From Thermoflexus hugenholtzii JAD2 (lineage in GTDB: Bacteria > Chloroflexota > UBA11872 > UBA12225): 62,175 nucleotides of DNA. The first letter of the stretch is position 1. Each line of letters starts with the position of its first letter. A program made the position numbers and the translations under genes. The stretch lies in the NCBI GenBank assembly GCA_945865725.1, contig CAMBEO010000006.1:1-62175 (forward strand). The letters run 5' to 3'. Below the pieces are notes generated by a model. It ran no database searches and had not been told where the DNA came from. It worked only from the letters and a program-made list of their open reading frames with translations. Shown piece by piece: positions 11,812-33,706 of the stretch.

Positions 11812-14244
11812 CTACTCGATGACCTCTTCCTGCTCCTCGACCTCTTCCTCGATGACCACGTCAATGTCCAGGCTAAGGGCAGGAGGGGTCCAGGCGACGG
11901 ATGACTTGCCGCGGGCGGGGTCGGCAAGAGCGGTCAAGATCGGCTCGCCCGAGATCGGCAATGTCGTCACTCGTGCGCCACACGCATCGTAGACGGCGTT
12001 CGCAACGGCTCCGAGCGTCGGCACGATCGGCACCTCGCCGACGCCGCGCACGCCATACGGGCCATCGACGGCAGGCACCTCGACAAGCAGGCACTCGACG
12101 TTTGGCGCGTCAAGTGCCGTCGGCATGCGGTAGTCCAGGAGGCCCGGGTTCCGCAGGCGCCCCTCGTTGTCGTACACGAAGCCCTCGGTCAGCGCCCATC
12201 CCAATCCCTGGACGACGCCGCCCTGGATCTGGCCCTCGACTGCGGTCGGGTTGATGGCCTTGCCGACATCCTGCGCGGCGACGACGTTCGTGACGACGAC
12301 TGCGCCCGTCTCCGGGTCGACCTCGACCTCGACAAGTTGCGTCGCGAATGCGGGGGCGCGCAGCAAGTGCGTGACCTCGCCCGTGCCCACGACGGGGCCC
12401 TGTCCGGACCCTGACGATCCCCGCGCGACCTGCCCGATCGTCAGGCGGTGGGCCGGAGCCAGCGTGGACCAGAGCTCGCCACCACGGTACTCGACGTCGT
12501 CGGGCGGGCATCGGAGGACGGTCGCCGCCCGTTGGCGCAACTGGGTCCGGGCGTCGATCGCCGCGCGATACACGGCGGTGCCCAGGCTGTAGGTGATGCG
12601 ACTGCCGCCGGTCGGGTTGCTGAACGGCGCCACGTCCGTATCGGCTTGCACGACCTGTACCCGCTCGTAGGGGATCTGAAGTTCCTCGGCAGCGATCTGC
12701 GCCATCGTCGTGCGGGTGCCCGCAAGGTCGACGGCCCCCGTCACGACGACGGCGGACCCGTCCTCGTTGATGTTGATGTGTGCGGTGGACGTGCCGACGC
12801 CCCCGCCCCACAGGCCGCACCCCACCCCGCGGCCTCGCAGCCACCCCTCGCGCGAAGGCGGGGACTTGGGGCTCGTCCACGCCGGATGGGAGGCGATGGC
12901 GTTCAGGGTCTCTTTCAAGCCAATCCGCGGGTACGGCACGTCGGACGGGTTGCGGTCGCCCTCGGCGACGGCGTTCTTCAGCCTGAGAGCGACGGGAGAC
13001 ATGCCGAGCTCGTCGGCAAGCATGTCCAGCGCGCTCTCGACGCCATAGGCGCCCTGCGGACCGTTCGGTGCGCGGTACGCCCCCGTGCTCGGCCGGTTGG
13101 TGAGCACGTCATACCCGACGTAGTGGTAGTCCTGGATGGCGTACGACCCGAAGCTGCAGTTGATCCCGCCGACGGAGCCGCCTCCCGGGTACGCGCCGAC
13201 GTCCCAGACGAAATGCGCGCGCGCGGCGACGAGGGTGCCGTCACGACGCGCGCCGACCTCGACGTGCATCGAGGTGTCCGGAGCGGGCCGCGTCGCTCGC
13301 AGGACGTCGGAGCGCGACAACTGCATCTTGACCGGTCGGCCGGTGACGTAGGCCAGGACGGCGCAAATCGGCTCGAGGGTCATCGCGCCCTTCGCGCCAA
13401 ACCCCCCGCCAACCTCGGAAGCGGTGACCCGCACGCGCCGTGGCGGGACCTTGAGGAAGCCCGCGAGACCGCTCCGCACGCCGAACGACCCTTGGGTCGA
13501 CGTCCAAATCGAAAAGCGTCCGTCGGGGGCGTACTCGGCGAGGCACGCCTGCGGCTCGATGTATCCCTGGTGGACCATCGCGGTGCGGAAGGACGCCGCG
13601 ATGCGCACGTCCGCGGACGCAAGGGCCGCGTCGACGTCGCCCTTCGACATCTCGGTGACCTTGGCGACGTTGCTCGGCGTGCGGGCCTTGCCGGCAAAGG
13701 TCTCGGTGAAGACCCCGTCGTGGATCGGCGTCGCCTCGCGCCGCATCGAGACCTCCGGGTCAAGGACGACCGGGAGCGGCTCGTACTCGACCGTGATGAG
13801 GGCGAGTGCCTCCTCGGCGATGGTCGGCGAGATCGCGGCGGCGACCGCCACCGGCTCGTGGTGGAACACCGCCTTCCGCCACGCGAGGATGCGCTTCCCG
13901 CGCGAGGGGACGTCGAACTCCTCGGGCGCGGCAGCGGTCTCCGAGATTCGCGCGACGATGCCGGGCAGGTCCGCGCCGGTCACCACCGCATGCACGCCCG
14001 GGAGCGCGCGCGCCGCGGCCGTGTCGATCGAAACGATGCGCGCATGGGCATGGGCGCTGCCGAGGAAGCGCGCCCACAGCATGTTCGGCCGTGACGTGTC
14101 GGCGCCGTACTGCGCCTTGCCGGTGACCTTCTCGGTTCCCTCGATCTTGGGCACCCGTTGCCCGATCACGGTGCGGGTCGGAACGGTCACGTCGGCCTCC
14201 GGCGTGCGGGTGGGGATACCGGTCGGGATTTGAGTCGTGGTCAT
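11812..14244 (-). CDS. Xanthine dehydrogenase/aldehyde oxidase-family molybdopterin-binding (large) subunit
   Basis: GTEKVTGKAQYGADTSRPNMLWARFLGSAHAHARI; GGGFGAKGA; GAYRAPNGPQ; VRGVGEVPIVPTLGAVANAV; acidic C-terminal tail. Confidence 0.88.
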   Translation of the reverse strand: MTTTQIPTGIPTRTPEADVTVPTRTVIGQRVPKIEGTEKVTGKAQYGADTSRPNMLWARFLGSAHAHARIVSIDTAAARALPGVHAVVTGADLPGIVARISETAAAPEEFDVPSRGKRILAWRKAVFHHEPVAVAAAISPTIAEEALALITVEYEPLPVVLDPEVSMRREATPIHDGVFTETFAGKARTPSNVAKVTEMSKGDVDAALASADVRIAASFRTAMVHQGYIEPQACLAEYAPDGRFSIWTSTQGSFGVRSGLAGFLKVPPRRVRVTASEVGGGFGAKGAMTLEPICAVLAYVTGRPVKMQLSRSDVLRATRPAPDTSMHVEVGARRDGTLVAARAHFVWDVGAYPGGGSVGGINCSFGSYAIQDYHYVGYDVLTNRPSTGAYRAPNGPQGAYGVESALDMLADELGMSPVALRLKNAVAEGDRNPSDVPYPRIGLKETLNAIASHPAWTSPKSPPSREGWLRGRGVGCGLWGGGVGTSTAHININEDGSAVVVTGAVDLAGTRTTMAQIAAEELQIPYERVQVVQADTDVAPFSNPTGGSRITYSLGTAVYRAAIDARTQLRQRAATVLRCPPDDVEYRGGELWSTLAPAHRLTIGQVARGSSGSGQGPVVGTGEVTHLLRAPAFATQLVEVEVDPETGAVVVTNVVAAQDVGKAINPTAVEGQIQGGVVQGLGWALTEGFVYDNEGRLRNPGLLDYRMPTALDAPNVECLLVEVPAVDGPYGVRGVGEVPIVPTLGAVANAVYDACGARVTTLPISGEPILTALADPARGKSSVAWTPPALSLDIDVVIEEEVEEQEEVIE

Positions 14245-14289
14245 CGGTCATCGCTCCCGGCGCGGCGCGCCTGGCAGGGAAACTGGCGG

Positions 14290-14760
14290 CTAGCGGGACG
14301 CCTCGGCTGCGACCTCGATGGCCCGCACGATCTTGTCGTACCCGGTGCAACGGCAAAGGTTGCCCGCGATCGCGTAGCGGATCTCGGTCTCGGTCGGGGT
14401 CGGGTTCCGGTCCAGGAGGGCGACGGCGGACAGCACCATGCCAGGCGTGCAGATGCCGCACTGGAGGCCACCCTCGTTGACGAACGCCTCCTGAACTGGA
14501 TGGAGCGTGTTGTCCGTCGCGATGCCCTCGATCGTGATCACTTCCTTGCCCTCGACCTCGGGGGCGAGGACGAGGCAGGCGTTCACCGGACTGCCGTCGA
14601 GGAGGACCGTGCAGGCCCCGCAGTCGCCGGTTCCGCACCCTTCCTTCGTCCCGGTCAGGCCGATGGTGTCGCGCAGGGCCTCGAGCAACGTACGGTGAGG
14701 GTCGGTAAAGAGCTCGTGCTCCTCGCCGTTGATTCGGGCGTTTACGATCATCCTGGGCAC
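14290..14760 (-). CDS. (2Fe-2S)-binding small subunit of molybdenum hydroxylase
   Basis: EGCGTGDCGACTVLLDG and CGICTPGMVLSAVALL...GNLCRCTGY cluster motifs. Confidence 0.93.
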   Translation of the reverse strand: MPRMIVNARINGEEHELFTDPHRTLLEALRDTIGLTGTKEGCGTGDCGACTVLLDGSPVNACLVLAPEVEGKEVITIEGIATDNTLHPVQEAFVNEGGLQCGICTPGMVLSAVALLDRNPTPTETEIRYAIAGNLCRCTGYDKIVRAIEVAAEASR

Positions 14761-14829
14761 CGGGTTCTCCTGGACGGCGTCGTTCGATAGTTCATGCCGG
14801 GTCGTCCGCGCCCGGACGAGCGTCGCAAC

Positions 14830-15702
14830 TCAAGCGGCCAGGGCACGGCCGATCGCGATCTTGATCGCGCGGCGCGCAAGCACCTCGACAAGGTGCCGAC
14901 GCCATGCCGCCGACCCTCGCTGGTCTGAGATCGGGCGGGCCTCGCCAGCGGCGATACGCGCGACCTCCGCGATCGTCGCGTCATCTGGAGCCTGCCCGAC
15001 GGCACGTGCCCCCGCCTCGCGCGCGAGGAAGGGCGTCGGCCCGACGGCTCCGAGCGCGACGCGAAGTGATGCGACGTCGCCACGGGCGTCGAGCGCCACG
15101 CTGGCTGCGACGCCCACGACGGCGATGTCCATCTCCTGCCTTGGCGTGTGCCGGAGGTACGCGGACCCGGACTTCGATGGAGGTGACGGCACGCGGATCG
15201 AGACGAGCACCTCGTCGGCGCCTAGCACGGTGCGACCCGGCCCGACGAAGAAATCGACCAGCGGGATCTCGCGTCGCCCGGTCGCACCATGGACGTCGAT
15301 GACCGCGTCAAGGACGAGGAGCGGGGGCGCGCAGTCGGCGGACGGGGCCGCGTTGCAGAGGTTGCCCCCCACCGTCCCCCGGTTCTGGATCTGGTACGAG
15401 CCGACGAGCGAGGCGCCCGTGGAGATGGCGGAGAAGCGGCGGCGGATCTCGGGATGATCCGCGACCTCGCCGAGCGAAACGCGCGCGCCGATTTCCAAGC
15501 CACCGGCTTCGTCGAACGAGACGCGCGAAAGTTCGTGCACGTCACGCAAGCTGACGACGTACCTCGGGACGCTTCCGCGCTCCTTCGCCTGGACGAGAAG
15601 GTCAGTACCCCCGGCGAGGATCCGTCCGCCGGGACCTTCCCGCTCGAGGACCGCAACCGCTTCGGCGAGTGAGGAGGGCGCGTGATAGGCGAACGCACGC
15701 AT
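14830..15702 (-). CDS. FAD-binding (medium) subunit of molybdenum hydroxylase
   Basis: MRAFAYHAPSSLAEAVAVL; AGGTDLLVQAKER; QIQNRGTVGGNLCNAAPSADCAPPLLVLDA (start trimmed from ORF 15978). Confidence 0.92.
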   Translation of the reverse strand: MRAFAYHAPSSLAEAVAVLEREGPGGRILAGGTDLLVQAKERGSVPRYVVSLRDVHELSRVSFDEAGGLEIGARVSLGEVADHPEIRRRFSAISTGASLVGSYQIQNRGTVGGNLCNAAPSADCAPPLLVLDAVIDVHGATGRREIPLVDFFVGPGRTVLGADEVLVSIRVPSPPSKSGSAYLRHTPRQEMDIAVVGVAASVALDARGDVASLRVALGAVGPTPFLAREAGARAVGQAPDDATIAEVARIAAGEARPISDQRGSAAWRRHLVEVLARRAIKIAIGRALAA

Positions 15703-15829: not shown

Positions 15830-16636
15830 GTGAGTATCATCTCGCAGGATGGACCCCATCCGCCACGCAGCACGGCCGACCTGCACTTGCACACCAGGCG
15901 GAGCGACGGGGCGATGACCGCGGCGGTGCTGCTCGCCCACGTGGTGTCCCGGACGTCGCTTGGGGTCATCGCCGTCACCGATCACGACGACCTTGCCGGG
16001 GCGATCGACGCGTGGGACCGCGCACGAGACCTGCCCGGCGCAACCCCTCGAGTGATCGTCGGCACTGAGGTCACGGCTGCCTGGGGGAAGCACGTCGTCG
16101 CCCTGTTTCCATCGGCGCCATTTCCCGCGAAGCCGCTTCCGCGCTTCCGGAGCGTGCGAGACACGGTCGCCCTCATCCACGACCTCGGGGGCATCGCAGT
16201 TGCCCCGCACCCCGCGACGCCGCTGGTGCCGAGCTTGGGTGAGGGCGACATTCGACGCTTGATGGACGGAACAGCGAGGCTGGACGCGATCGAGGTTTGC
16301 ACCGGCGCGCTCCGGGGCCGGAGGCGGGAGGCCCGCATGCGCCGGCTTGCCCGGGAGCTAGGCATCGCCGAGGTCGGCTCCAGCGACGCCCACCATCTCG
16401 CGCACGTCGGGGCCGCGGTCACGCATTTCGATGGCGCCGGGATCGCCGACCTCGTCGCGGCGATCACTGGTCGGACCACCGTCGCGGGATGGGGTCAGTC
16501 AACGCGTGTCGGCCCTCGCGCGCTGCTCGCGCAAGCCGGGAGGGCGTGGGCAGTCCGACCCGCGCGCGAACTTCGGGAGGTCATGCGCCACCCACGGTTC
16601 CGGGAGCGGCTCAGACGCTTGGCTTCCGGGAACTAG
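15830..16636 (+). CDS. PHP-domain metal-dependent phosphoesterase
   Basis: TADLHLHTRRSDGAMT; VIAVTDHDDLAGAIDAW; EVGSSDAHHLAHVG; GTG start inferred. Confidence 0.82.
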   Translation: MSIISQDGPHPPRSTADLHLHTRRSDGAMTAAVLLAHVVSRTSLGVIAVTDHDDLAGAIDAWDRARDLPGATPRVIVGTEVTAAWGKHVVALFPSAPFPAKPLPRFRSVRDTVALIHDLGGIAVAPHPATPLVPSLGEGDIRRLMDGTARLDAIEVCTGALRGRRREARMRRLARELGIAEVGSSDAHHLAHVGAAVTHFDGAGIADLVAAITGRTTVAGWGQSTRVGPRALLAQAGRAWAVRPARELREVMRHPRFRERLRRLASGN

Positions 16637-17376
16637 CGGCCCGGCACGGTCGTCGTTGCGAGCTTCGGAAGGGCAACACCGATGTCCTGGGAAGTCGCGA
16701 CGAAGGAGATGAACTCCTCGTCGACCAGCTCGGTGATCGTCGGCGTCGTCGCCCGCTGTTCGCCGAGGTACTCGTCGTACTTGACGATCGCCGACTTCAC
16801 CACATCTGGCTTCCGTTCGAGCAGAGCCTTGAAGACGGTGTAGGTGTGGATGTCGCGCTCACCCTCCCAGTACCACTGTCCCCAGCGGTCCAGGACGCGT
16901 ATCGCGCGGTCGAGGTCGGGCATCAACTTCTGGATCGTGTCGCCGCGCCCGAGGTACCAGGCGACCCGGATCCGGGTCAAAGCGAGGGTGGCGCCGTAGA
17001 GCGGTTCCGGGGTGATGTCGAGGCTCTGAACAAGCGTCTTGACCGACTCGTCAATGGTCAAACCCACTTGCTCCAGGAGCTCGCGGTCATTCGACATCCA
17101 CGCGGCGCCGAGGACGTGCATCGCGAGCGGAGCGTAGATCCCCTGTCGACGGCCGTCGGCCTGGGCGTCCAGGAGGAGCGCCGGGGCCGCCCGGCGGTAC
17201 AGGTCCGACGCCCAGTCCATCTCCCCGAGCAGCCATGCCCCGCGAGCGGCGCGAAGCCACACGCCACCCGGGATGACGGCCCTGACGCTCTTGCGTTGCG
17301 TCTCGTCGATCAACTTGAGCGTCACGTCTAGCTCGTCGCTGATGCGCTTGGTCGCCTCGTCCGTCGTTGTCGCCAT
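16633..17376 (-). CDS. Hypothetical alpha-helical protein
   Basis: Coherent ORF starting MATTTDEATKRISDEL; TATACT -10-like box 7 nt upstream of the ATG. Confidence 0.6.
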   Translation of the reverse strand: MATTTDEATKRISDELDVTLKLIDETQRKSVRAVIPGGVWLRAARGAWLLGEMDWASDLYRRAAPALLLDAQADGRRQGIYAPLAMHVLGAAWMSNDRELLEQVGLTIDESVKTLVQSLDITPEPLYGATLALTRIRVAWYLGRGDTIQKLMPDLDRAIRVLDRWGQWYWEGERDIHTYTVFKALLERKPDVVKSAIVKYDEYLGEQRATTPTITELVDEEFISFVATSQDIGVALPKLATTTVPGR

Positions 17377-17533
17377 GGGCGGCAGTATACCCGCGAGACC
17401 TTCACCCGGAACGCGACGCGCCAGTCGGCCAGCGCCTGTCGCGAGTGGCCCCAGTACTGGGAGCGCCAGCGTTCCGCCGTCGCGCGGGCTGGCACCACCG
17501 GCGTCCCGCAGCCTCAGGCGACCGGGGCCGGCC

Positions 17534-18001
17534 CTAACGGACCCGCTGCACGTACCACTGCCCACCACGGCGCTCGACATTCAAGATCGAGCTCGTTTCA
17601 GACCAAGCGGACCAATCGGCTGGAACCCCGTCCCGGTGGAACCGTTCGCGCGAACCATAGGTCAGGTAGACCTGACCGCGCCACGAGATCCCCTGGTCCA
17701 GGGCCTTCGCAACGGAGCCGACCGGACGCGTGCCGGTGACGGTGATCGCGCGTACTTCCGCCTCAAGCTGGTCCCCGCGGGCGCCGATCGAAATCCGTCG
17801 CGGCGCGATTGCCCACGTGCCGTTCGCGCCCAACGTGTAGCCGATCCGCGTCAACTCGTTCTCGAACGACTCGACACCCTTCCGCCCCGCGTCCGCGTCG
17901 GTGACGTCGCCGCATCCGGCTACACCTACGAAAGGAACGACGGCCGCCACGGCGAGGACTTCGCGCCGGCCAAACGTCTGGGCTGGCGGTCGGAAGGTCA
18001 C
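17534..18001 (-). CDS. Hypothetical Tat-type lipoprotein
   Basis: N-term GRREVLAVAAVVPFVGVAGC (RR plus lipobox-like AGC); overlaps the mnmA 3' end by 4 nt. Confidence 0.6.
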   Translation of the reverse strand: MTFRPPAQTFGRREVLAVAAVVPFVGVAGCGDVTDADAGRKGVESFENELTRIGYTLGANGTWAIAPRRISIGARGDQLEAEVRAITVTGTRPVGSVAKALDQGISWRGQVYLTYGSRERFHRDGVPADWSAWSETSSILNVERRGGQWYVQRVR

Positions 18002-28453: not shown

Positions 28454-29326
28454 ATGCCCGGCCTGCCGATCGTGTCGGCCTGGCTGGCTCACCCGCCCAG
28501 GACGCGCGCGATGCTTCCGCTGATCGAAATTGATATCGACCCGGTGATCGCCCAGTTCGGGCCCTTCGCGCTGCGCTGGTACAGCCTCATGATCATGGCC
28601 GGCATTTATGGCGGCACCCTTGCAGCGGCGCGATTTGCCGGCGATCGGGGCATCGACCAGGACCATGTCTACTCGGTGGCCGTCTGGGTGGTGGTTGCTG
28701 GGATCATCGGTGCCCGCCTCACGCACGTGATCGACCGATGGGATCTCTATCGAGACCACCCCGAACGCGTCTTCCTGATCTACCAGGGAGGCATCGCGAT
28801 CTGGGGGGGGCTGGTCGCGGGCGGGATCGCGGTCTGGGCGTACGCTCGTCGGAACGGCGTGCCGTTCTGGCGTTTCGCCGACGCGATCTCCCACGGAGCG
28901 ATCCTTGGGCAAGCCATCGGACGGATCGGATGCATCGTCAACGGTGACGTGGCGGGAAGGCCCACGGGGGCGGACTGGGGGTTCGTTTACCTTCACCCCG
29001 GCGCGCTCCTTCCGAAGCTGTCGTACTTCGGGGTGCCAACCCATCCATACCCGCTCTACGAGCTTGTCTGGGACGTCGCCCTGTTCGGACTGCTGTTCGT
29101 GGTCGCTCGCCGGGTTCGCATCGACGGGGCCGTCTTCCTCACGTACGCCGCCGTGTACTCGATGGCACGCTTCGTCCTCACGATGGTCCGCGAGGAGGGA
29201 GTCTGGGCGTTCGGCCTCCAGCAGGCCCAGATCGTGTCACTGGCGACGTTCGCGCTCGCGGCTTGGACGCTCGCACGACGGGCCCGTCTCGCGGCTGCTC
29301 CCGCCACGGTGGCCGACGCCCCGTGA
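28454..29326 (+). CDS. lgt: Prolipoprotein diacylglyceryl transferase
   Basis: FGPFALRWYSLMIMAG; GGLVAGGIAVW; GQAIGRIGCIVNGDVAGRPT; HPYPLYE (an alternative start exists at 28511). Confidence 0.93.
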   Translation: MPGLPIVSAWLAHPPRTRAMLPLIEIDIDPVIAQFGPFALRWYSLMIMAGIYGGTLAAARFAGDRGIDQDHVYSVAVWVVVAGIIGARLTHVIDRWDLYRDHPERVFLIYQGGIAIWGGLVAGGIAVWAYARRNGVPFWRFADAISHGAILGQAIGRIGCIVNGDVAGRPTGADWGFVYLHPGALLPKLSYFGVPTHPYPLYELVWDVALFGLLFVVARRVRIDGAVFLTYAAVYSMARFVLTMVREEGVWAFGLQQAQIVSLATFALAAWTLARRARLAAAPATVADAP

Positions 29327-29425: not shown

Positions 29426-31420
29426 GTGATGGATGATCGCCTAGCCCTCGCGCTGACGCTGGCACTGCCGCTCCTGACCGCAGCAAGCGCGTTCGCGGCA
29501 ATCGCCCGGCCTGCACGGGCATTGGTAGGTGTCTTGCTCGTGGCCGCGGTCATCGACGCGGTCGCTGGCGTCGCGATCCTTCCGGGGATCCGACGGGGCC
29601 TCGCCGCACCCGAGGCCGGCGTCGCGACATGGTCGCCGCTCGGCCTCTATGGGGTGGAACTGACGGTGCGCACCCAAGCGCTTGGCAGCTTCCTCGCCGT
29701 GCCGGGCGTCGTCGCCGCGGTCGTCGGGTGGTTTCGAGCGTACGGCCCACCTTGGCGCGACCCGTCCGGCAAGGCCGTGCCGGCGGGGCGTCCGGTGGTC
29801 GATGCCGCCCTGCTCGTCGCGGTCTCAGGGGGCACGTGGGCACTGGTGGCGGGAGACCTGGTGTCGATCGTGCTCGGCACCGGCGCGTTCGTCGTCGCGA
29901 CCGCTGGTGCCCTTGCTGCCGTAGGGGCCGTGCGCGCCGCCAGATGGCGACTCGTGGTCACCGGCGCGATGAGTTTTGGCCTGCTGGTGTGCATGCTCCT
30001 CCTCGGCAAGGTGAACGGGTCCTTTGCCGCGGGGCAACTTGCTTCTGTCAGTTTCAGCGACGCCAGTCTGGCCGGGCTCGTCATGGTCGCGTCTGGACTT
30101 GGCAACGCCGTGCCTTTCCACGCGTGGGCGCTTCGTCTTTGCCGGCAGCCCCTGATGCCCGCGGTCGCCGCTACCGGGAGCGCCGTTTCGCTTGCACTCG
30201 TTGACATCGCTTTCGTAACCACCGGCGGCGAGCTTGCAGGCCCATGGCGGACGTTTCTCACGGCCCTCGGATTGTTCGCGATCATCGGATCGATTGGCTG
30301 GTCGTGGTCCACCAGTCATCCCCGAATGCGGCTTGCCACGCTCCTGGGTGGTCGCACCGGGTTGACGCTCATGGCGCTCGCCAGCGGCGCGCCCGCAACA
30401 ATGAGCGCGCTCACCCTCTTGCATGGCGTCGCCGCGACAGGAGCGGCGATCCTGTGGGTCGCCGCCCCCGGAGCCGCCGCATCGTCGCCACCCACTCCCG
30501 TATCGCGCGCCACCTCGGGAGGAACTGGGGGTGGAGGCCTCCGAGCGACGCGGTCCTTCCCTCTTACCCCTCCCGCGCCTGCAGGGTCGCTCACGGGGAA
30601 CGGGAAGGTCAGGGGGATGGTGACGACCGACGCGTGGCGAAGTGCCGTGCCTTGGATCGTCGTGCTCGTGGTGGCCACGGCGGTGGGCCTTCCGGGAACC
30701 ATCGGCGGACTTGCAGCGGACACGTATCTCAGCGCCCTGACGGCGTCAAGCGAAGCCGGAGGGTGGCTGCGCCTTGCGGCCCTCCTCCTCGATACCGCGA
30801 CGATCGGCGCAAGCGGCGCGGTCCTCGGCGCATGGCTGCGACCGAAGCGTTCGACGCGCGACGGGACGTCCCGATCCCCCATCCATCAACCTGATGGATG
30901 GGCCATGCCCGACGACGGATGGCGGGCACGACCCTCGGTGTTTGGATCGCTCGCCGCGATGCTCCCGTGGCTGGGAGTCGCCATTGGGCTCGCGGTCATC
31001 GTCGCGCCCGCCGTACTTCCGCTGACGTTCGTCGGCCCGTGGTTCGGTCCCATCAGCGTCGTCGCTGCCGGGACAAGCACTCCACCCCGACTTGTCGATG
31101 CGCTTCGGATTGCGAGCCCGGACCGGATCCTCCTCGCTGGCGCCGCCGCGGTCGCCCTCTACCGGATCCAGAAAGGGGAAGAGATGCTGCCGGCGGTCGC
31201 GCGGGCGATGCTCGGCATCGGGGTCGTGATTGCGACGCCCCTTCTTCGCATCGGCCGAGGCGTCGTGTTGGTCGTTCGTGGTGCGCTCGACCTCTTGCTG
31301 GTTCGCCTGGTCTCGTTGAGCGACCAGGCGTCATCGACGGCGCGCCTGGTCGAGGAGCGTTACTACGCCGCCGTCGCTGTCGTCGTCATTGTCGTGCTGC
31401 TCTACAGTGTCGGGCGATGA
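29426..31420 (+). CDS. Divergent NuoL/M/N (Mrp/Hyf antiporter-like) membrane subunit
   Basis: Polytopic; GLGNAVPFHAWALRL aligns by eye to the K-x-x-x-[FV]P[FL]HxW motif of proton-conducting subunits but lacks the Lys. Confidence 0.6.
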   Translation: MMDDRLALALTLALPLLTAASAFAAIARPARALVGVLLVAAVIDAVAGVAILPGIRRGLAAPEAGVATWSPLGLYGVELTVRTQALGSFLAVPGVVAAVVGWFRAYGPPWRDPSGKAVPAGRPVVDAALLVAVSGGTWALVAGDLVSIVLGTGAFVVATAGALAAVGAVRAARWRLVVTGAMSFGLLVCMLLLGKVNGSFAAGQLASVSFSDASLAGLVMVASGLGNAVPFHAWALRLCRQPLMPAVAATGSAVSLALVDIAFVTTGGELAGPWRTFLTALGLFAIIGSIGWSWSTSHPRMRLATLLGGRTGLTLMALASGAPATMSALTLLHGVAATGAAILWVAAPGAAASSPPTPVSRATSGGTGGGGLRATRSFPLTPPAPAGSLTGNGKVRGMVTTDAWRSAVPWIVVLVVATAVGLPGTIGGLAADTYLSALTASSEAGGWLRLAALLLDTATIGASGAVLGAWLRPKRSTRDGTSRSPIHQPDGWAMPDDGWRARPSVFGSLAAMLPWLGVAIGLAVIVAPAVLPLTFVGPWFGPISVVAAGTSTPPRLVDALRIASPDRILLAGAAAVALYRIQKGEEMLPAVARAMLGIGVVIATPLLRIGRGVVLVVRGALDLLLVRLVSLSDQASSTARLVEERYYAAVAVVVIVVLLYSVGR

Positions 31421-31499
31421 TCGTGACCTTCTGGAGCACGGCAAGGATGCCCGCGGACCTTGCCAGCGCAATCTCAAAAATGTCGTCGCCGACGTCTGA

Positions 31500-32234
31500 A
31501 TGGGACACGTGCGAGTGCTGAACGAGTTCGTCCTGCTCGTCCTGCTTGTCGTGGTTGCCTCGCTGCTGAGCGTCTCAGTCGAATGGCACGTCGCCTTGGC
31601 CTGCCTCTGGCTCGTCTATGGGATCGCCAGCACGTGGCTCGCCGTCGTCGCGACCCCCGAACTGGCCGGTGCCAAGCTCGTCACCGGCTCGACGGTCTGC
31701 GTGCTCCTCGCGCCAAGCCTTCGAGCACTGTCGGCAGAGCGCGCCCGGAGTACCGGACGGGTGCGCCGCCTCGTCGATACGGCTGGAAGTACGGCGGTAG
31801 ACGAGCCGTTCATGCTGGTCGGGGCGATCCTTGTGGCGGCGGCGTCCATCGCGCTCTCGCAGGCCTTCCCGATCGTGGGATCCGCGACGAACTTCGCGTG
31901 GTACTGGCTTGGCTTGCTCGGCCTGCTCTTGATCATGCTTTCGCGCGACCTCGTTCGGGTTGGCATCGGCCTCCTCCTCCTCCTCAATGCGGTCGACCTT
32001 CTGGACACGCTCGCGGCTAGCCACCAGGGGGTCGGTGCGATCGGTGCCCGTAGCGTCGTCACGATCGTGCTCGCGCTCGCCCTCGGCGTCGTGTGGACGG
32101 CCGTCCACGCGCGGGCAGTGACAGGTGCGCCGCCACCTCCGGTGCCGACGCTCTCGCTCATCGGCCGGCCGGTCGGAGACCTTGACCAGTCCGACCAGCA
32201 GGCGGTGGACGAGGCGGCGTCGCAGGCGGGATAG
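31500..32234 (+). CDS. MbhD(DUF4040)-like plus NuoK/MrpC-like fusion membrane subunit
   Basis: N-half ALACLWLVYGIASTWLAVVATPELAGAKLVTGSTVCVLLA (DUF4040-like); C-half SRDLVRVGIGLLLLLNAVDLL (compare NuoK RNLI..LIGLE..LNAVNL). Confidence 0.6.
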   Translation: MGHVRVLNEFVLLVLLVVVASLLSVSVEWHVALACLWLVYGIASTWLAVVATPELAGAKLVTGSTVCVLLAPSLRALSAERARSTGRVRRLVDTAGSTAVDEPFMLVGAILVAAASIALSQAFPIVGSATNFAWYWLGLLGLLLIMLSRDLVRVGIGLLLLLNAVDLLDTLAASHQGVGAIGARSVVTIVLALALGVVWTAVHARAVTGAPPPPVPTLSLIGRPVGDLDQSDQQAVDEAASQAG

Positions 32235-32239
32235 GGCGA

Positions 32240-33706
32240 GTGGCGACGACCGTGTCACTCGGAGTGATCGCGCTTCCTGTGGTCAGCCCTCTTGTCGCCG
32301 CGGCGATCCTGGCCTTGGCGATGGCCCTCGTTCACGGGCGCGGCGGATCGGATGGCGCCGTACGGCGCGCGCCGTGGGCGCTCGTCCTGCCGGTCATCAA
32401 CTGGCTTCCGGCTCTGGCGATGGTGGGCGCGGCCGTCGCGGTCGCGCGACTGCCCGACGCGGCCGCCATCCCGATCGGCTCGTGGTCACTCGGGGTGGGT
32501 GCCGTCGCGCGCGTCCAGTCGGTGTTCGCGTTCGGGGCCGGCGCCTTCATCGCTGCCCTCGGGGCGGCCTCCGATCGGGGACCAGCCACGGCGATCGCCG
32601 CCGTGATCGCGTCGTCGTCGATCGTCATCGGCGCCGTGGCGGGCGACGATGCGCGGGTCGGCGCCGCCGGCATCCACGTCGCCGTGCTCGTCACGGCGAT
32701 GGTCATGGCCACGGCTGGCACCGACGGCACGGCTGGCCGGTCGGGATGGCGTGCCGCGACAACCTACTTGACGCTGGCAAGCCTCGGCCTCGTGATCTTG
32801 CTTGCCGGCTTCTCGCTTGCTGACATCCTGCGGATCAGTCCGGGAGGCCTCGTCACCGAGGCGTTCGCGATCGCGGTCCTCGCCGTTGGCTTCGCCCTGG
32901 CGATCGGCCTGGTCCCGCTCCACTTCTGGGTGCCGGTGGTCTCCTTGCGGTCAGGCGAAGGCGGGGCGATGCTGGCTTTGGGGCTCGTGGCTCCCGCCAC
33001 CGTGGGCTTTCTGGTGCAAGTGCTTTCTGGCCTTCCGCAACTCGGCAGCGAGGTGCTGACTGCGCGCCTACTAGTCATTGGCGGACTGCTCGGGTGTGCG
33101 GGAGGCGCGATCGGCGCCGTGGCACCCGGGCGTCTTGGGCGACGGGTTGGCTATGCGGTGATCGCTGGCCTCGGCCCGGTCTTGCTTGGCATCGGATCCG
33201 GCACGCGTATCGGCGTCGCGGGGGCCTTGGTGGCGCTCGCCCATCACGCCACGTGCATGATTGTCCTGGTCGGATCGGCCGCCGCGCTCGAGGGGCGACC
33301 GGATCGCCAACGCCCGGCAGGCGCATCGCGACGCGCGGTTCAGATGGCGTTCGTCCTGGCCGCCATCGCCTCGAGCGGGATCCCGCCGCTTGGCGGATTC
33401 GCCGCACGATGGGCCGTGATGCAGGCCTTGTCGCTCGCGGACTGGCGCCTGGCGATGGCGGTGGGCGTGTCGTCGCTCGTGGTGTTGGCGGGGCTCCTCG
33501 TGGGCGCCAGTCGCTGGCCCGGTGACCGGCCTGAAACTCCCGTCGAAGGCGACCTAGGGTCCCGACCCCAATGGAAGTTGTCGGGTTCGGCGTGGGTCCT
33601 GCTTGCGTCCACCGTCGCCGCGTGCGCCTTAAGCGTCTTGCCATCACCAGTGCTCGACCAGGCGCACCGTGCGACCGCCCAGTTGACGTACCTGAGACCG
33701 TTCTAG
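32240..33706 (+). CDS. Divergent NuoN/M-like proton-conducting membrane subunit
   Basis: FALAIGLVPLHFWVPVVSLRSGEGGAMLALG aligns by eye to GFxFKLGLVPFHxWxPDVY of NuoN. Confidence 0.65.
   Translation: MATTVSLGVIALPVVSPLVAAAILALAMALVHGRGGSDGAVRRAPWALVLPVINWLPALAMVGAAVAVARLPDAAAIPIGSWSLGVGAVARVQSVFAFGAGAFIAALGAASDRGPATAIAAVIASSSIVIGAVAGDDARVGAAGIHVAVLVTAMVMATAGTDGTAGRSGWRAATTYLTLASLGLVILLAGFSLADILRISPGGLVTEAFAIAVLAVGFALAIGLVPLHFWVPVVSLRSGEGGAMLALGLVAPATVGFLVQVLSGLPQLGSEVLTARLLVIGGLLGCAGGAIGAVAPGRLGRRVGYAVIAGLGPVLLGIGSGTRIGVAGALVALAHHATCMIVLVGSAAALEGRPDRQRPAGASRRAVQMAFVLAAIASSGIPPLGGFAARWAVMQALSLADWRLAMAVGVSSLVVLAGLLVGASRWPGDRPETPVEGDLGSRPQWKLSGSAWVLLASTVAACALSVLPSPVLDQAHRATAQLTYLRPF

Follow-up and report, generated by a model that had tools for sequence, protein, structure and literature searches.

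In a 62,175-nucleotide stretch of the Thermoflexus hugenholtzii JAD2 genome (contig CAMBEO010000006.1; hereafter the window), three adjacent genes, which we call genes 1 to 3, encode membrane proteins of the Mrp/complex I kind. On our best reading, what is new here is an orphan three-gene complex of this kind that lacks the usual route for protons; a well-known type of pump seems to have been turned to a different use. We are confident of the identity and orphan status of the module. As to its function, our first choice, which is plausible rather than probable, is a non-redox, Mrp-like three-subunit complex that would let ions through down a gradient, as a carrier or a leak, by way of gene 2. 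An earlier note, made from the sequence alone, had described two NuoL/M/N-like proteins and one NuoK/MbhD-like protein lacking proton-channel charges, and had proposed comparing predicted structures, aligning the relevant residues, and surveying homologs for conserved gene order. The window's own genome is labeled G000 and its family f1; other genomes, families, and loci carry G, f, and L numbers.

To place the three proteins in families, we combined sequence profiles with predicted structures. Gene 3 matched the Pfam family Proton_antipo_M (E = 1.8 × 10−13), and its best match by phmmer was MrpD of B. pseudofirmus (7qru_D, E = 1.1 × 10−15). Gene 1 alone gave no meaningful Pfam or NCBIfam match; a profile of its family reached MrpA (7qru_A, E = 4.3 × 10−41), with NuoL-type chains next, and Foldseek matched its AlphaFold2 model (predicted local distance difference test score, pLDDT, 63; predicted template modeling score, pTM, 0.69) to NuoL, MrpD, and NuoN structures (E = 6.7 × 10−9, probability 1.00). 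In hhalign comparisons, the f1 gene 1 profile matched gene 1 of hydrogenase-linked clusters (E = 8.9 × 10−14) and the latter matched NuoM (E = 1.2 × 10−13), with no significant match of the f1 profile directly to NuoL; this link to complex I is transitive because it passes through operon-linked relatives. Both genes fall in the Proton_antipo_M superfamily (NuoL/M/N, MrpA/D), gene 3 by Pfam and gene 1 by family profile and fold.

The assignment of gene 2 is the weakest of the three. Its matches in the PDB comprised only five chains, all of MbhD/MbsD or MrpC/NuoK type (E values 0.009–0.26). The two best, both to the N-terminal half, were MbsD and MbhD (6u8y_D, E = 0.0093; 6cfw_D, E = 0.057), and the C-terminal half matched MrpC/NuoK chains (6u8y_G, E = 0.089; 7wff_E, E = 0.12), all of which are marginal. 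The hhalign E value was 0.0028 to both HyfE and NuoK, a match to PF00420 (E = 0.012) fell below the cut-off, there was no DUF4040 match in Pfam, and the AlphaFold model was poor (pLDDT 63), with no significant Foldseek match. Gene 2 resembles a fusion of MbhD (DUF4040) and MrpC/NuoK. The subunit types named in the earlier note agree with family profiles, fold, and PDB matches, marginally so for gene 2, and the three genes would represent the MrpA-N/NuoL, MbhD plus MrpC, and MrpD types of a membrane complex of the complex I/Mrp/group 4 hydrogenase superfamily.

Charged residues in transmembrane helices (TM) 5, 7, 8, and 12 of antiporter-like subunits matter for ion conduction (PMC9568556, PMC11496545). 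We aligned genes 1 and 3 against NuoL, NuoM, and NuoN of the same genome and against HyfB, HyfD, and HyfF of E. coli. In gene 1, the TM5 Glu falls on G152, the TM7 Lys on L224, the TM8 Lys on A252, and the TM12 Lys or Glu on A430; the corresponding residues of gene 3 are H146, A221, P252, and R390. A phmmer alignment with B. pseudofirmus MrpD was concordant, placing Lys219 on A221 and Lys250 on P252, with Lys337 opposite a gap of three residues. Of the set that marks a proton-translocating subunit, the only charge found in either gene is the substituted Arg in TM12 of gene 3. This protein also keeps the TM11 His pair, H335-H336, the second of which is replaced by Arg in L040 and L041. The motifs that had served as landmarks in the earlier note are present (in gene 1, LGNAVPFHAW beginning at residue 224; in gene 3, AIGLVPLHFWVP beginning at residue 221), and the alignment confirms that the TM7 Lys is missing from both. 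The note's further reading, that the TM5 Glu and a later Lys are also missing, stands with one amendment, namely that R390 preserves a positive charge in gene 3. Judged by these residues, canonical proton pumping through genes 1 and 3 would be abolished or very weak. Loss of the TM7 Lys from one subunit is not in itself diagnostic of a dead pump, since NuoM of a second, otherwise complete complex I in relatives has Leu at this position (L056, 14696–16168, in G003; L057, 15282–16796, in G002).

No other protein in the 62-kb window matched NuoA-N profiles, which extends the earlier observation that no catalytic subunit lies within at least 4 kb on either side. G000, which is 85% complete, yielded a single match each for NuoD, NuoH, and NuoB, all within a complete nuo operon (L054) that itself includes L, M, and N; because every complex I catalytic match of the genome lies there, the module does not represent a displaced arm. 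In genomes of the same family there is either a single complex I set or a pair of them, and wherever the contig allowed reading, the second set likewise had L, M, and N genes of its own; five f4 genomes (95–98% complete) have a single NuoD, NuoH, and NuoB each. We ruled out a displaced complex I arm, as everything that the NuoB, NuoD, and NuoH searches returned belonged to the one or two complex I sets of each genome. More broadly, the module could belong, as a displaced or divergent arm, to a redox enzyme (complex I, hydrogenase, or Ehr) encoded elsewhere, a reading that draws on the incompleteness of the window genome and on related clusters, described below, that adjoin a NuoD-like large subunit, a NuoB-like small subunit, and a weakly NuoH-like protein. 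We consider it improbable: the NuoD, NuoH, and NuoB matches in 13 same-family and same-class genomes are explained by one or two complex I sets, and the operons that we fetched have their own L, M, and N. The closed orphan genomes G045, G341, and G224 carry two large subunits and two NuoH each, and G140 more; by comparison with G057 (L062, L063), these extra sets are probably further complex I or hydrogenase, and the closed genomes gave no sign of an unpaired catalytic set, with contexts partly fetched and partly inferred from G057. The suggestion in the earlier note of a divergent partner to a catalytic unit elsewhere is therefore unsupported.

We next compared the module with known systems. 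In its order, A-C-D, it resembles Mrp antiporters (CPA3), with gene 1 like MrpA, the C-terminal half of gene 2 like MrpC, and gene 3 like MrpD; it differs in that what is the C-terminal part of MrpA is here a separate protein fused to MrpC, and in that the canonical Glu and Lys residues are replaced in the window lineage. MbhD-G-H and their counterparts in Mbh (6cfw) and Mbs (6u8y) offer a second likeness, since the two halves of gene 2 resemble MbhD/MbsD and the MrpC-like subunit and an MrpD-like subunit adjoins, but the module fuses the first two, has a Lys aligned with the MbhD/MbsD Glu, and lacks catalytic subunits at the locus. HyfB-HyfE-HyfF of E. coli hydrogenase 4 have a similar order and similar sizes (~670, 220, and 530 aa), and the C-terminal half of HyfE is NuoK-like; however, HyfB and HyfF retain the TM5 Glu, TM7 Lys, and TM12 Glu, and the Hyf operon includes HyfC, HyfD, HyfG, HyfH, and HyfI. 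Ehr complexes combine hydrogenase-type membrane arms with a large subunit that lacks Ni-Fe ligands (PMC6349859), a state that some operon-linked relatives of the module approach, whereas at the window locus both the large and the small subunit are missing. With NuoL/M/N/K of complex I the module shares the antiporter-like fold found by Foldseek for the gene 1 model, but it lacks NuoA-I and the proton-path charges, and the same genome has a separate, complete complex I.

The defining features of both Mrp and the group 4 hydrogenases were looked for and not found, and we therefore file the module outside both. Group 4 [NiFe] hydrogenases and Ehr complexes have a NuoD-like large and a NuoB-like small subunit, and the sole NuoD and NuoB of the genome lie within complex I. 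Mrp systems have six or seven subunits, MrpA-G, and here there are only A-, C-, and D-like genes, with lgt-like and Gfo/Idh-type neighbors in f1; MrpB, E, F, and G are not beside the three genes, and the rest of the genome was not searched for them. A conventional but divergent Mrp-type Na+(K+)/H+ antiporter would suit the subunit types and their order, and some orphans (L048) retain Glu, Lys, and Lys at TM5, TM7, and TM12 of gene 1. We nevertheless find this reading improbable, given the missing neighbors, the loss of the Glu/Lys pairs from both antiporter-like subunits in the window lineage, and the Lys in the MbhD Glu column.

A gene 2 profile matched 107 of 399 Chloroflexota genomes, in 47 of 224 genera. 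The homolog survey found the same three genes in the same order as an orphan module in about 13 families, including that of the window; a scan of genome contigs returned family relatives plus L076 only, and we found no description of the module itself in the open-licence literature. Among 41 Chloroflexota clusters examined that have all three genes, a gene for a NuoD-like large subunit directly precedes the module in 12, and the remainder are orphans. We take the hosts of the enzyme-linked clusters to be Chloroflexia-type. A NuoB-like small subunit lies downstream in four of the 12 (L110, L113, L114, and L115), and the two that were scanned match PF01058 (E = 5.5 × 10−11 and 3.4 × 10−15). In most linked clusters a ~270-aa membrane protein comes next, weakly NuoH-like (hhalign E = 0.014), followed by genes that look like those of an ATP-binding cassette (ABC) transporter. 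Three of these clusters form compact hydrogenase-like operons (L113, 3532–11710; L115, 5331–13478; L114, 5270–13199) that run from the NuoD-like large subunit through the three antiporter-type genes to a very short NuoB-like small subunit, the weakly NuoH-like protein, and the ABC transporter-looking genes, with no NuoC or NuoI beside them. By eye, the large subunits of L113-L115, L121, L049, and L107-L109 have CxxC near both ends, while those of L110, L111, L112, and L123 have degraded cysteine motifs at the N and/or C terminus; no NuoB-like gene was called beside L111, L112, or L123. This loss of NiFe-ligand cysteines or of an adjacent small subunit makes catalysis look dispensable even in linked relatives. 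In f10 and f41, most orphan clusters (L116, L117, L119, L124, L125, L136, and L137) are followed by a ~395-aa coiled-coil-like protein and a SelB-like GTPase.

In a concatenated tree, the clusters group mostly by host family. Orphan and linked labels change twice when E. coli Hyf is added as outgroup and separate in one split (support 92) without it, so the enzyme may have been lost or gained, in either direction, and the enzyme-free state may equally be ancestral. The gene 1 charges at TM5 and TM7 are missing in most enzyme-linked clusters too. Conversely, some orphans (L048, L043-L047) keep gene 1 charges: L048 has the TM5 Glu, TM7 Lys, and TM12 Lys. In f4 orphans, the gene 1 Glu is kept, with Arg at TM7 and TM12. 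A residue table across clusters thus ruled out that charges were lost because the module is an orphan, and the connection between the two that the earlier note implied fails.

The three proteins are maintained by purifying selection. Among close relatives, the ratio of nonsynonymous to synonymous substitution rates (dN/dS) was 0.12–0.18 for gene 1, about 0.10–0.11 for gene 2, and about 0.09 for gene 3, compared with a similar 0.08–0.14 for the neighboring lgt and 0.01–0.02 for ffh and GlyRS. The closest pair, G003-G007, gave 0.17–0.27 with few changes, and G000-G001 gave 0.22–0.32 for the three genes versus 0.18 for lgt; gene 3 changes more quickly within the genus to which the window belongs. 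The patchy distribution (present in 8 of 9 f1 and 5 of 6 f4 genomes examined, and no gene 2 match listed for f2, f3, and f5 genomes of the same class) might suggest a decaying remnant without present function. The selection data largely refute this, and we hold it to be very improbable: open reading frames (ORFs) in the f1 members examined are intact save for truncation at contig edges, dN/dS is low in the close set, and gene order is conserved across about 13 families. With nothing catalytic nearby and NuoB, NuoD, and NuoH confined to a complete complex I, the conserved and selected orphan arrangement gives good support to the view of the earlier note that this is a repurposed, non-redox complex.

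Gene 2 charges are conserved while those of genes 1 and 3 vary among clusters. Across the 41 clusters, the K59 column is Lys or Arg in 90%, the D166 column acidic in 93%, and the R153 column basic in 83%. HMMER aligns K59 with the Glu of APDVA(I/M)(A/T)EAA(V/I)G, a motif of MbhD and MbsD; in our own reading of the register from the shared motif, the MrpA residue in that column would be Gln683, and Glu687 would follow after one turn. This position and the conserved gene 2 charges are the ground for the idea of a rewired path, in which ions would pass through gene 2. The three proteins would assemble as in Mrp or Mbh and the complex would run without redox drive, as a gradient-driven ion carrier or leak with a residual polar path at the gene 2 interface (K59, D166) and in TM11/TM12 of gene 3 (H335, R390).

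Several points weigh against this account. The case for transport and assembly is indirect; the AlphaFold model of gene 2 is poor (pLDDT 63) and had no significant Foldseek match, which leaves the K59-D166 path putative; H335 and R390 vary between branches (in L040 and L041, Asn replaces R390); buried charges may be conserved just as well for folding or for a scaffold; and the window genome is only 85% complete. A scaffold would move no ions and would act as a platform in the membrane, or as an assembly factor, for some soluble or membrane partner. The absence of canonical charges from both antiporter-like subunits in a module that survives under purifying selection speaks for it, as do the linked large subunits in several lineages that lack NiFe-ligand cysteines or an adjacent small subunit. 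We judge a scaffold unlikely, though a serious competitor: the genes beside the three differ from family to family (lgt in f1; UbiD-like in f4; coiled-coil-like plus SelB-like in f10/f41), with none kept throughout as a partner, and a scaffold leaves the conserved Lys and acid inside predicted gene 2 helices unexplained. We rank the ion carrier with a gene 2 path ahead of it.

Genes in the window were called with a codon-usage gene caller written for this analysis, which recovers the three genes (Table 1) and the expected neighbors. All three ORFs are open and co-directional; genes 1 and 2 are 79 bp apart, and a gap of 5 bp separates gene 2 from gene 3. Gene 1 likely starts at the ATG at 29429, three bases 3' of a GTG at 29426. 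From recognition of their sequences, we take the neighbors to be lgt, Gfo/Idh, GlyRS, PPDK, and DnaG. The lgt-like gene (28454–29326) lies directly 5' of gene 1 in every f1 cluster with that side on the contig, and the two may share a transcript. Elsewhere in the window, ARAGORN called a 99-nt tRNA-Pro on the minus strand (17474–17572) that overlaps ORF calls at 16633–17580 and 17534–18001; either the tRNA call or an overlapping ORF call is probably wrong. Three adjoining minus-strand genes at 11812–15702 presumably encode the large, iron-sulfur, and flavin adenine dinucleotide (FAD) subunits of a xanthine/CO dehydrogenase family enzyme, which they resemble.

Table 1. Coordinates in the window of the three genes and of the motifs and codons discussed
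Feature	Position	Strand	Description
Gene 1	29429..31420	+	663 aa; NuoL/MrpA-N-like antiporter-like subunit; long C-terminal helix
Gene 2	31500..32234	+	244 aa; N-terminal half MbhD/MbsD (DUF4040)-like, C-terminal half MrpC/NuoK-like; HyfE-like layout
Gene 3	32240..33706	+	488 aa; MrpD/NuoM-like antiporter-like subunit
LGNAVPFHAWA motif, gene 1	30098..30130	+	TM7 Lys position is L224
AIGLVPLHFWVP motif, gene 3	32900..32935	+	starts at residue 221; TM7 Lys position is A221
K59 codon, gene 2	31674..31676	+	stands on Glu of MbhD/MbsD motif
D166 codon, gene 2	31995..31997	+	acidic in 93% of 41 clusters

The field has yet to settle how complex I, through its antiporter-like subunits, links redox chemistry to the movement of ions. 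In its fullest and more tentative form, our proposal is that the module is an ancient Chloroflexota complex with an Mrp/complex I core that would have abandoned the Glu/Lys route in both antiporter-like subunits, would have no redox drive, and would pass ions through a rewired path in the MbhD plus MrpC fusion, where the MbhD Glu is now a near-universal Lys or Arg. A natural, selected three-subunit version without a redox enzyme or the supposed proton-path residues is an evolutionary experiment on how much those residues matter, and the Chloroflexota series (large and small subunit; small subunit missing beside the cluster; neither), together with partial retention of the charges, allows comparative tests.

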